Source: Thermoleophilia bacterium
Lineage (GTDB): Bacteria > Actinomycetota > Thermoleophilia > Miltoncostaeales > Miltoncostaeaceae
DNA: 49,289 bases
Assembly (NCBI GenBank): GCA_017882585.1
Contig: JADGPF010000006.1
Span: 1-49,289 of the forward strand
Direction: 5' to 3'
The notes below the pieces were generated by a model. It did no database searches. It was given only the letters and a program-made list of their open reading frames with translations, and was not told the origin of the DNA. Below are positions 43,475 to 46,313 of the stretch, piece by piece; position 1 is the stretch's first letter, and every line of letters begins with the position of its first letter. A program made the position numbers and the translations under genes.

Positions 43475-43480
43475 TATAGT
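43475..43480 (+). promoter_or_regulatory. Putative -10 box of the rpsF operon
   Basis: TATAGT, 67 nt before the ATT start of rpsF. A leader of about 60 nt with SD GGAGA is predicted, unlike the leaderless genes around it. Confidence 0.55.
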
Positions 43481-43547
43481 GCCATGCTTGCCAGAACGGG
43501 CCGGGCGACGCGTGGTCCGGATTTGTGTGATCTGAACGGAGACAGCG

Positions 43548-43955
43548 ATTAGCCCCTACGAAATCATGATTATCCTCGACCCCGACGTGGACGAGGAGCG
43601 CCAGCAGGAGATGCTGGAGCGCGTCCAACAGATCATCCGGGACGCCGACGGAGTCGTCGATCACGTCAATGACTGGGGCCGCCGAAAGCTCGGCTACGCG
43701 ATGGAGAAGAAGGCTGACGGCCGCTACGTGGTGATCACGTGTTCGGCGACCGTCGACGGCCTGAATGAGGCTGAGCGCGTGATGACCATCAACAAAGAGG
43801 TCGTCATCCGCCACATGGTGATCGTGCTCAACCCCATCCAGGCCGAACGCGCGAAAGCCAACGGCGCGCCGCTTCCGGTCGACGATCGTCCCGAAGGCGA
43901 CGCCCGTCCCGCACGCGCGGGCCGTGGCGGCCCCCGACGCGGCCCGCGCAGGTAG
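43548..43955 (+). CDS. rpsF: 30S ribosomal protein S6, apparent ATT start
   Basis: S6 pairs with S18 on the 30S platform. Starting at ATT 43548 the protein reads M-S-P-Y-E-I-M-I-I-L-D-P, the usual S6 N-terminus (consensus M-x-x-Y-E-x-M-x-I-L-D-P). GGAGA is 5 nt upstream. An in-frame TGA at 43533 excludes any longer version. The only standard start, ATG 43566, would delete the first strand residues and lie 23 nt from the SD. Typical motifs WGRRKLGYAMEKKADGRYVV (given as WGRRKLGYA and KKADGRYVV) are present. The tail is basic (RPARAGRGGPRRGPRR). 135 residues. Confidence 0.93.
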   Translation: MSPYEIMIILDPDVDEERQQEMLERVQQIIRDADGVVDHVNDWGRRKLGYAMEKKADGRYVVITCSATVDGLNEAERVMTINKEVVIRHMVIVLNPIQAERAKANGAPLPVDDRPEGDARPARAGRGGPRRGPRR

Positions 43956-43958
43956 CCG

Positions 43959-44435
43959 ATGCCCGCCGATCTCAACCGCGTCACGCTCGTCGGTCGCCTC
44001 ACGCGGGACCCGGAACTCCGGCACACCGCCGGTGGCCAGTCGGTCTGCTCGATCCGCCTCGCAGTCAGCAGCCGGGGGCGCGATGAAAGCGGCAACTGGT
44101 CGGACCGCGCGAACTACTTCGACGTCACCGTGTTCGGTCGAACGGCCGAGACGGCGTCCAATTACCTGTCCAAGGGACGCCGGATCGGCGTCGACGGACG
44201 GTTGTCCTGGCGCGAATGGGAAGCCCAGGACGGCGGCAAGCGCCAGTCGGTGGAAGTGGTCGCCAACGACATCTTTTTCCTCGATAGTCGGGGCGACAGC
44301 GGCGAGGGCGGCAGCTCCGGTGGCGGTGGTGCCGACCGTGGCTGGGGAACCGCAGCACCCGCCACCGATCTTCCGGTCGACACGTCCGATCTTCGGCCAG
44401 CAGCACCGGCCGACGACGACGACATTCCCTTCTAA
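43959..44435 (+). CDS. ssb: Single-stranded DNA-binding protein
   Basis: 158-residue SSB. OB domain (1-110): NRVTLVGRLTRDPELR, NYFDVTVFGRTAE, KGRRIGVDGRLSWREWE. A Gly-rich linker leads to the acidic tip DDDDIPF, the partner-binding motif for replication and repair proteins. It starts 3 nt after rpsF. rpsR, which commonly follows ssb, is not present before rplI. Confidence 0.97.
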   Translation: MPADLNRVTLVGRLTRDPELRHTAGGQSVCSIRLAVSSRGRDESGNWSDRANYFDVTVFGRTAETASNYLSKGRRIGVDGRLSWREWEAQDGGKRQSVEVVANDIFFLDSRGDSGEGGSSGGGGADRGWGTAAPATDLPVDTSDLRPAAPADDDDIPF

Positions 44436-44468: not shown

Positions 44469-44921
44469 ATGGACGCCATCCTTCTTCAGGACATCAACGG
44501 GCTGGGCGACGCCGGGACTGTGGTCTCGGTTGCACGCGGCTACATGCGTAACTACCTGCAGCCGCGTGGACTCGCCGAGGTTGCGACCCCGGCGCGTATC
44601 GCTGAGGTTCAGCGCAACGAAGCCAAGCGCAAGGCCGCCGACGAGCGCGCCCGCCTTCAGGCCATTGAGCAGGCCGACCTCCTGGGCCGCACGATCCTCA
44701 CGCTCAAGGCCAAGGCCGGCGATGACGGCCGCCTGTTCGGATCGATCACTTCCGGGGACGTCGCAGACGCCATCCAGGAAGCGCGCGGCATCGTCATCGA
44801 TCGCCGTCGGATCACCGTCGACCCCCCCATCCGCGCCGTTGGCACCTACAACGTGCCGATCGAGCTCGGGCCGGACCTCGTTGCCGAGGTCAAGACGATC
44901 GTCAGCCCTGTGCTGGACTAG
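44469..44921 (+). CDS. rplI: 50S ribosomal protein L9
   Basis: 150-residue L9: N-terminal domain with the rRNA-binding pattern (LGDAGTVVSVARGYMRNYLQPRG), the long connecting helix (IAEVQRNEAKRKAADERARLQA, about 40-75), and the C-terminal domain with LFGSITSGDVADAI. Preceded by an SD-like GGAGGCG. Follows ssb by 33 nt. Confidence 0.97.
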   Translation: MDAILLQDINGLGDAGTVVSVARGYMRNYLQPRGLAEVATPARIAEVQRNEAKRKAADERARLQAIEQADLLGRTILTLKAKAGDDGRLFGSITSGDVADAIQEARGIVIDRRRITVDPPIRAVGTYNVPIELGPDLVAEVKTIVSPVLD

Positions 44922-44981: not shown

Positions 44982-46313
44982 GTGCCCGAGAGCGTCCCAC
45001 CGCCCCAAAACCTCGAGGCCGAGGAGCTTCTTCTCGCCTCATTGATGGAGAACCCCGGCAACGTCGCGGAGACGCTCGCGATGGTCGGGCCCGACGACTT
45101 CTACAAGGAAGGCCATCGACGGATCTTCATGGCCATGAACGACCTGTTCATGGTGGGCGAGCCGATCGAGCCGCTGCTGGTCGTCGAGCAGCTCACCAAG
45201 CAGGGCGACCTTGACGTCGCCGGCGGGCGCACGGCGGTACTCGACATCATGGCGACCCCGTTTATCGCCGCCAGTTTCCGAAGTTACGCCGAGATCGTGC
45301 GCGAGACGGCGACCCAGCGCCGGCTGCTCCAGGTGGCGCAGCGGATCGAGCAGATGGTCGCCGAGCGCGAGGGCGAGACCAGCGACATGGTCCAGTCGGC
45401 CGAGGATCTCATCTTCGAGCTCAGCCAGAAGCGCGTCCGCGGCGACTTCACCTCGTCGAAGGAGCTCGTCACCCAGAGCTTCGAGCGCCTGACGGCCGCA
45501 AGCGCGGTCGGGTCGGAGGTCACGGGCCTGGCGACCGGGTTCACGGATCTGGATCGGCTGACCGGTGGTCTGCGCCCGGCGAACCTGATCGTCGTCGCCG
45601 CCCGCCCAAGCATGGGCAAGACCGCACTCGCGCTGTGCATCGCCGAGCATGTGGCCCTGCACGCCGACGGGACGGTCGCGGTGTTCTCGCTGGAGATGAG
45701 CGGCGAGGAGCTCGTGCAGCGGATGCTCGGGTCGGCGGCGATGGTGGATATGACCCGCATGCGTAGTGGGCGTCTGGCGCCCGAGGACTGGCCCCGGGTT
45801 ACCCGCGCCGCCGATCAGATCGCTCAGGCGCGGCTGTTTATCGACGACTCCGAAGGCATCACGGTCGGTGAGATGCGCACGAAGGCCCGGCGCCTGAAGA
45901 GCCGTGAAGGCCTGTCGCTGGTCATCGTTGACTACATCCAGCTCATGGAATCCCGCACCGGGCGCCGCGACGAGAATCGCGTCCAGGAGTTGTCTACGAT
46001 TTCGCGGGGCCTCAAGATGCTCGCGCGCGACCTTGATGTGCCGCTGATCTGCATCTCGCAGCTCAACCGCTCGCCCGAAAGTCGCCCGGACAAGCGCCCG
46101 ATGTTGTCGGACCTGCGTGAATCCGGGGCGATCGAGCAGGACGCCGATCTGGTCATGCTGATCTACCGCGACGACTACTACAACACCGATTCCGAGGAGA
46201 AGGGGATCGCCGAGGTGAACCTTGCAAAGCACCGCAGTGGCCCGACCGACCGTGTGAAGCTCACGTTCATGGGCACGTATGCAAAGTTCGGCAACCTTCG
46301 GCGGGACAACTAA
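44982..46313 (+). CDS. dnaB: Replicative DNA helicase DnaB
   Basis: Hexameric 5'-3' helicase at the replication fork. 443 residues. N-terminal DnaB_N domain begins PPQNLEAEELLLASLM; the RecA-like domain has Walker A ARPSMGKTALAL, VAVFSLEMSGEELVQRM, Walker B LVIVDYIQLM, and LRESGAIEQDADLV. GTG 44982 is the start after a 60-nt gap from rplI. No intein is present. The start lacks a strong SD. Confidence 0.97.
   Translation: MPESVPPPQNLEAEELLLASLMENPGNVAETLAMVGPDDFYKEGHRRIFMAMNDLFMVGEPIEPLLVVEQLTKQGDLDVAGGRTAVLDIMATPFIAASFRSYAEIVRETATQRRLLQVAQRIEQMVAEREGETSDMVQSAEDLIFELSQKRVRGDFTSSKELVTQSFERLTAASAVGSEVTGLATGFTDLDRLTGGLRPANLIVVAARPSMGKTALALCIAEHVALHADGTVAVFSLEMSGEELVQRMLGSAAMVDMTRMRSGRLAPEDWPRVTRAADQIAQARLFIDDSEGITVGEMRTKARRLKSREGLSLVIVDYIQLMESRTGRRDENRVQELSTISRGLKMLARDLDVPLICISQLNRSPESRPDKRPMLSDLRESGAIEQDADLVMLIYRDDYYNTDSEEKGIAEVNLAKHRSGPTDRVKLTFMGTYAKFGNLRRDN

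Follow-up and report, generated by a model that had tools for sequence, protein, structure and literature searches.

The infC gene of E. coli and other bacteria, which encodes IF3, starts at AUU or AUA and is subject to IF3 feedback, and pcnB of E. coli starts at AUU. In S. aureus, conserved non-canonical starts are found at cvfC1 (AUU) and ccpN (AUA), and such AUA/AUU starts, which are paired with extended Shine-Dalgarno (SD) sequences, gave about 10% of AUG expression in poor medium (PMC13009471). Ribosomal protein genes offer two further points of comparison: E. coli rpsT (bS20) starts at UUG (PMC10931766), and rpsF is preceded by an autogenous S6:S18 leader as described in Matelska 2013, Fu 2014 and Babina 2015 and reviewed in PMC10931766. 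Here we compare with these systems an rpsF gene of the Miltoncostaeaceae that very probably begins translation at AUU, and we show by comparison that a weak, non-NUG rpsF start is kept across most Thermoleophilia families near it and in Rubrobacter.

The gene lies in a 49,289-nucleotide stretch of Thermoleophilia DNA (contig JADGPF010000006.1 of assembly GCA_017882585.1; hereafter the window), which comes from a draft, metagenome-like bin of 107 contigs and 82% completeness. Its product is identified as S6 by TIGR00166 (76.7 bits, cut-off 42.9) and PF01250 (E = 6.6e-25), and since a second S6 was not detected in the genome it is the sole S6 found there. The gene order is rpsF-ssb-rplI-dnaB, followed by an open reading frame, MPATVIVGAQWGDEGKGK, that reads as purA and that we take to be purA by its N-terminus. 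The features of the locus are collected in Table 1. From the position of the TATAGT element the rpsF transcript would start near 43487, and TATA-like elements stand at a comparable distance in nearly all Miltoncostaeaceae rpsF leaders. A two-codon frame, GTG-ATC-TGA (43527-43535), ends 12 nt ahead of the rpsF start; its counterpart in the congener G002 is ATG-ACG-TGA, and it is missing in the congener G003, an absence that makes the frame probably a product of chance.

Table 1. Features at and downstream of the rpsF start (positions in the window).
Feature	Position	Strand	Basis or remark
-10 like element TATAGT	43475..43480	+	about 68 nt upstream of start codon; promoter role putative
In-frame TGA, bars N-terminal extension	43533..43535	+	sequence; same TGA in congeners G002, G003
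Shine-Dalgarno GGAGA, 5 nt ahead of ATT	43538..43542	+	SD:anti-SD duplex -8.5 kcal/mol
rpsF start codon ATT	43548..43550	+	alignment of 35 family members, SD spacing, in-frame stop
rpsF, ribosomal protein bS6, 135 aa read from ATT	43548..43955	+	TIGR00166, PF01250; AlphaFold2 model
Internal ATG, codon 7, non-start	43566..43568	+	24 nt past GGAG; inside strand 1; missing in 8 CTG-start relatives
ssb, ATG start	43959..44435	+	TIGR00621; relatives ATG/GTG
rplI (bL9), ATG start	44469..44921	+	TIGR00158
dnaB, GTG start	44982..46313	+	TIGR00665

The first-pass annotation had placed the S6 N-terminus at the ATT, and the site bears this out in each part. Read from ATT 43548, the frame I-S-P-Y-E-I-M fits the S6 pattern M-x-x-Y-E; the coordinates of the SD check, with a spacer of 5 nt counted from GGAGA, or 6 when counted from the end of GGAG; and not one ATG, GTG or TTG stands in frame between the TGA and the ATT, so that, as had been claimed, no longer frame is permitted. 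A longer protein was also considered, but three of the four congeners have a TGA in frame that rules it out; the fourth, G001, is without this stop and has an in-frame GTG seven codons upstream. Across 25 genomes no ATG, GTG or TTG separates the near-cognate codon from the in-frame stop, and the SD spacer is 5-8 nt in the Miltoncostaeaceae and 6-9 nt for the other families (almost every spacer falls within 5-9 nt). An ATG at this codon in relatives, the outcome that had been named as speaking against the reading, is absent from all 35 Miltoncostaeaceae species, of which 33 have ATC (25), ATT (7) or ATA (1) in the same column. The recurrence of these codons at one position, with an SD 5-8 nt upstream, is more than chance would give. 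The use of AUU as the start codon is thus strongly supported by the alignment of 35 family members, by SD spacing and by the in-frame stop.

Two other accounts of the ATT were weighed. The first standard start beyond it is the ATG at codon 7, which is present in every near-cognate Miltoncostaeaceae species and in most other near-cognate species, and S6 might begin there, with the preceding codons serving as an untranslated leader. Such a start, however, would be separated from the SD by 24 nt, and the protein would be without Tyr4 and Glu5, which are invariant in the S6 alignment. In an AlphaFold2 model built from 18 relatives strand 1 spans codons 3-10, so that initiation at codon 7 would remove codons 3-6 and truncate the strand, as the annotation had anticipated. 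Within the Miltoncostaeaceae, moreover, codons 4-6 remain YEI or YQI through synonymous changes (TAC/TAT, GAA/GAG). Finally, 8 of 14 CTG-start genomes of family f4 have no ATG at codon 7 (the next standard codon is 14, 22, 38 or 72), and internal initiation therefore cannot account for the pattern; we regard it as very improbable. The other account, a sequencing or assembly error in which ATG was misread as ATT, draws on the draft nature of the bin, but it is ruled out by relatives and finished genomes, with ATT, ATC or ATA in 33 of the 35 family members, including a single-contig genome (G014) and M. oceani, and its probability is close to nil.

To place the window gene we aligned the start column of 118 Thermoleophilia rpsF genes, with families labelled f1 to f12 and f1 denoting the Miltoncostaeaceae. 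The two f1 species outside the near-cognate set are G013, which reads GTC on a contig of 3.4x coverage, and G020, in which a new ATG stands three codons before the column. The pure culture Miltoncostaea oceani, whose genome is finished (G025, with a replicon identical to NZ_CP064357.1 across the 4 kb tested), has ATC. Near-cognate codons occupy the column in 13/13 f2 genes (ATC 9, ATA 2, ACG 2) and in all six aligned f6 genes (ACG, with more f6 genomes found to have ACG by pattern search); f4 has CTG in 14 and TTG in 2 of 16 genes, and f11 has ATC in 4 and ATG in 1 of 5. ATG thus stands at the start column in only 1 of the 75 rpsF genes of f1, f2, f4, f6 and f11. Family f3 (17/22) and family f8 (14/14) have mainly GTG, and the thinly sampled f5, f7 and f12 have standard starts. 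Outside the Thermoleophilia, 43 of 48 sampled Actinomycetota have ATG, GTG or TTG; the remaining five comprise an f19 species with CTG and 4/4 genes of f23 (ATA in three, ATT in one), among them Rubrobacter radiotolerans (G448, a finished genome identified via plasmid NZ_CP007516.1), with ATA. In 80 further loci, largely from Firmicutes and Coriobacteriia, most genes have a standard start at the column or a few codons above it, and the loci that clearly depart from this, L060-L063, are from Thermoleophilia or from members of their families. This comparison shows a start whose codon identity turns over (AUC, AUU, AUA, ACG, CUG) while its weakness persists, and suggests that evolution has for a very long time retained an inefficient start on a core gene of the ribosome.

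In f2, f6 and f11 a formal competitor exists, a GTG that lies in frame within the SD, three codons before the column (12/13, 6/6 and 4/5 genes, respectively), and that could be the true start in those families but is irrelevant to the window. We consider this improbable. That GTG belongs to the SD helix itself; an f2 genome (G082) has ATC with a stop at -2; and 12/16 f4 genes with the same extended SD have no in-frame GTG, so that CTG remains. Most f4 genes in fact carry an in-frame TGA inside the extended SD (AGG AGG TGA CCC AAA CTG), which leaves only CTG.

The surroundings of the start differ among these families. In f2-f7, rpsR lies about 0.9 kb or slightly more downstream of rpsF. In the window operon it is not found between ssb and rplI, and the source genome has it on another contig (G000:C23:12228-12377; L230). 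It is unlinked from rpsF in the Miltoncostaeaceae generally, lying 2.3 Mb away in coordinates in the single-contig genome (G014:C1:816802), and likewise in an f8 genome (G048:C82). In one f3 genome a selenocysteine tRNA (RF01852, 60.4 bits) was seen near rpsF (L016 500-590, - strand).

Where rpsR is in the operon, in f2, f4 and f6, the rpsF leader forms a hairpin within a stem that pairs CACNCCU with AGGAGGUG, covers the SD and has a CCG-containing bulge, the same architecture as that of the S6:S18 autogenous operator as described in PMC10931766. The hairpin covaries, with 21 double-change cells, a number matched by 0/500 shuffles, and sliding the alignment by one column collapses the pairing; the covering stem is nearly invariant and is therefore backed by pairing and position, not by covariation. 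Because Rfam returned no leader family at E up to 1 for 16 scanned rpsF loci, L002, L003 and L006 among them, we built a covariance model (R1) from the f2, f4 and f6 leaders. R1 scores those leaders at 64-69 bits, on its own training alignment, and loci outside the training set (L289, L264, L247) at 42-57 bits; it also matches the leaders of f11, of the Rubrobacter family and of other actinobacterial outgroups, and f3 weakly. It finds no match at the rpsF of 30 f1 loci or in the searched loci of f5, f7 and f8, and none in the window leader, where its best score, 5.7 bits, falls inside the gene. In the window, then, neither the SD-covering stem, hairpin and CCG bulge of the S6:S18 class nor the linkage of rpsF to rpsR is detected. 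SD-covering structures of the S6:S18 type stand before rpsF in several Actinomycetota (L002, L003, L006, L180, L247, L251, L264, L289). With the operator kept in f2, f4, f6, f11 and the Rubrobacter family and undetectable in f1, the weak start occurs both with and without it. SD strength varies as well, the extended SDs of f2, f4, f6 and f11 having family means of -17 to -23 kcal/mol and the moderate SDs of f1 -9 kcal/mol.

If near-cognate codons served the Miltoncostaeaceae about as well as AUG, the rpsF start would call for no regulatory explanation. One observation invites this reading: adk starts at ATA in 27/27 Miltoncostaeaceae genomes, where the codon overlaps the secY stop (AUAA/AUAG) and no standard start lies nearby upstream (L291, about 10854, in G002; L302-L331), whereas f4 and f6 adk have ATG. 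On sequence grounds adk would be another essential gene with a near-cognate start throughout the family, and the family may simply tolerate such starts; the apparent ATA start of f4 infC points the same way. Under so lax an initiation fidelity AUC, AUU and AUA would be read about as well as AUG, with nothing regulated. Set against this, a comparison of f1, f4 and f6 across the ribosomal protein region gave standard starts for about 30 genes, and the window genes whose N-termini are clear throughout the family have them too; and in the same lineage ssb and rplI keep ATG/GTG, rpsR keeps ATG/TTG and f1 infC keeps GTG/TTG. Near-cognate starts are therefore rare and gene-specific, with 2 of roughly 45 genes looked at in f1 (rpsF and adk). 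The sharing of the rpsF trait by five families, with a single ATG among 75 genes and the new upstream ATG of G020, also argues against neutrality, and we judge neutral tolerance to be rather unlikely. As for infC itself, the f4 gene appears to be ATA-started (L201, L202, L203, L206, L209), with an in-frame TGA just upstream in G044, and the Rubrobacter-family gene seems to start at a conserved GTA after GGAG, with no NUG there (L354, L355, L356, L358).

We propose that the weak rpsF start is probably a selected attenuator, discriminated against by IF3, that keeps S6 translation down. On this model initiator fMet-tRNA on ordinary SD-led 30S complexes would read rpsF from AUU 43548, and IF3 and the initiation checkpoint would reject many of these complexes, since the AUU of the window belongs to the class of codons that IF3 discriminates against. 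S6 output would then be a fraction of the AUG rate, drawn from an abundant operon mRNA, and the rpsF start would act as a brake while the downstream ssb, rplI and dnaB retain standard starts. In families with linked rpsR, the brake would be joined to an autogenous S6:S18-type operator with its stem over the SD; in the Miltoncostaeaceae, which have no detectable operator and whose rpsR has moved out of the operon, the start codon and leader would be the remaining control at this site. We favour an attenuation by which S6 production is fitted to need, whether or not the S6:S18 operator accompanies it. Several observations sit less easily with a brake. Where a ribosomal protein is needed in stoichiometric amounts, a much weaker start has to be compensated by a strong SD and abundant mRNA, but the f1 SD, unlike that of f2, f4, f6 and f11, is not extended; the codon-7 ATG is kept in all near-cognate f1 species; adk is also AUA in f1; and the GTG inside the SD of f2, f6 and f11 offers a formal alternative start. 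The first-pass annotation went further and suggested that the AUU ties the operon to IF3 levels or to S6 dosage. Regulation of this kind is a plausible hypothesis, and control exerted in practice through IF3 availability is a tentative one that we think somewhat doubtful.

A more specific proposal makes the weak start a sensor: 30S subunits devoid of S6 (or S6:S18), or from which IF3 has been lost, would be the preferred readers of rpsF, and a shortage of S6 would thereby raise its synthesis without an RNA operator. There is precedent in F. johnsoniae, whose rpsU is translated by ribosomes lacking bS21, a protein that, together with bS18 and bS6, makes up a pocket of the platform (PMC9976891), and the N-terminal domain of IF3 docks near the 30S platform (PMC5037330). 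The undetectable f1 operator and unlinked rpsR would suit such an arrangement, in which an operator-free loop through acceptance of AUU, AUC, AUA, ACG or CUG could, in the Miltoncostaeaceae, have taken the place of the S6:S18 RNA operator. The laxity of S6-deficient 30S subunits in start-codon choice is, however, an assumption of this proposal, and the trait is also present where the operator is kept (f2, f4, f6, f11 and the Rubrobacter family). We hold both the sensing by deficient subunits and the replacement of the operator to be unlikely, and we continue to favour simple attenuation.

Near-cognate starts that act as translational brakes are already known from infC, pcnB, ccpN and cvfC1. 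The rpsF start adds a case in which the gene concerned encodes a stoichiometric ribosomal protein and in which the weak start, with a changing codon, has persisted in two classes of Actinomycetota, in one of them across several families. A search of the open-access literature, with subscription papers mostly outside its reach, found no earlier report of a near-cognate start either for rpsF or for any other ribosomal protein made in stoichiometric amounts. These families are natural replicates in which one can ask what selects for a weak start and whether the dosage of ribosomal proteins can be set by start-codon fidelity. They also suggest that annotation pipelines limited to NUG starts may misplace the starts of S6 and adk in these bacteria.

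The parallel with infC and pcnB drawn at first pass is apt as to the kind of start, the AUU of rpsF being in the class known from both genes. As with infC, a conserved near-cognate start of the codon class rejected by IF3 stands on an essential translation gene with an SD upstream. The differences are that S6 is a stoichiometric structural protein and that Miltoncostaeaceae infC itself has GTG or TTG; rpsF does not encode the fidelity factor, and so a direct feedback loop like that of infC does not follow for it. With S. aureus cvfC1 and ccpN and E. coli pcnB the rpsF start shares family-wide conservation, an extended SD (in f2, f4, f6 and f11) and an expected lower translation, but those genes encode regulators or enzymes, not structural ribosomal proteins, and the turnover among AUC, AUU, AUA, ACG and CUG seen at rpsF is not described for them. 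The S6:S18 leader is shared by f2, f4, f6, f11 and outgroups, which have its SD-covering stem, hairpin and CCG-containing bulge; it is undetected in the Miltoncostaeaceae, and the near-cognate start lies outside the motif as those accounts outline it. Like rpsU of F. johnsoniae, rpsF encodes a protein of the 30S platform and has an unusual initiation region, although the unusual part is a very strong SD there and the start codon here, and sensing of the missing protein, a feature of rpsU, is for rpsF hypothetical. E. coli rpsT, finally, resembles rpsF in having a weak start on a small-subunit protein gene that is confined to some lineages, but its UUG is a standard weak start, whereas AUU, AUC, AUA and ACG are non-standard.
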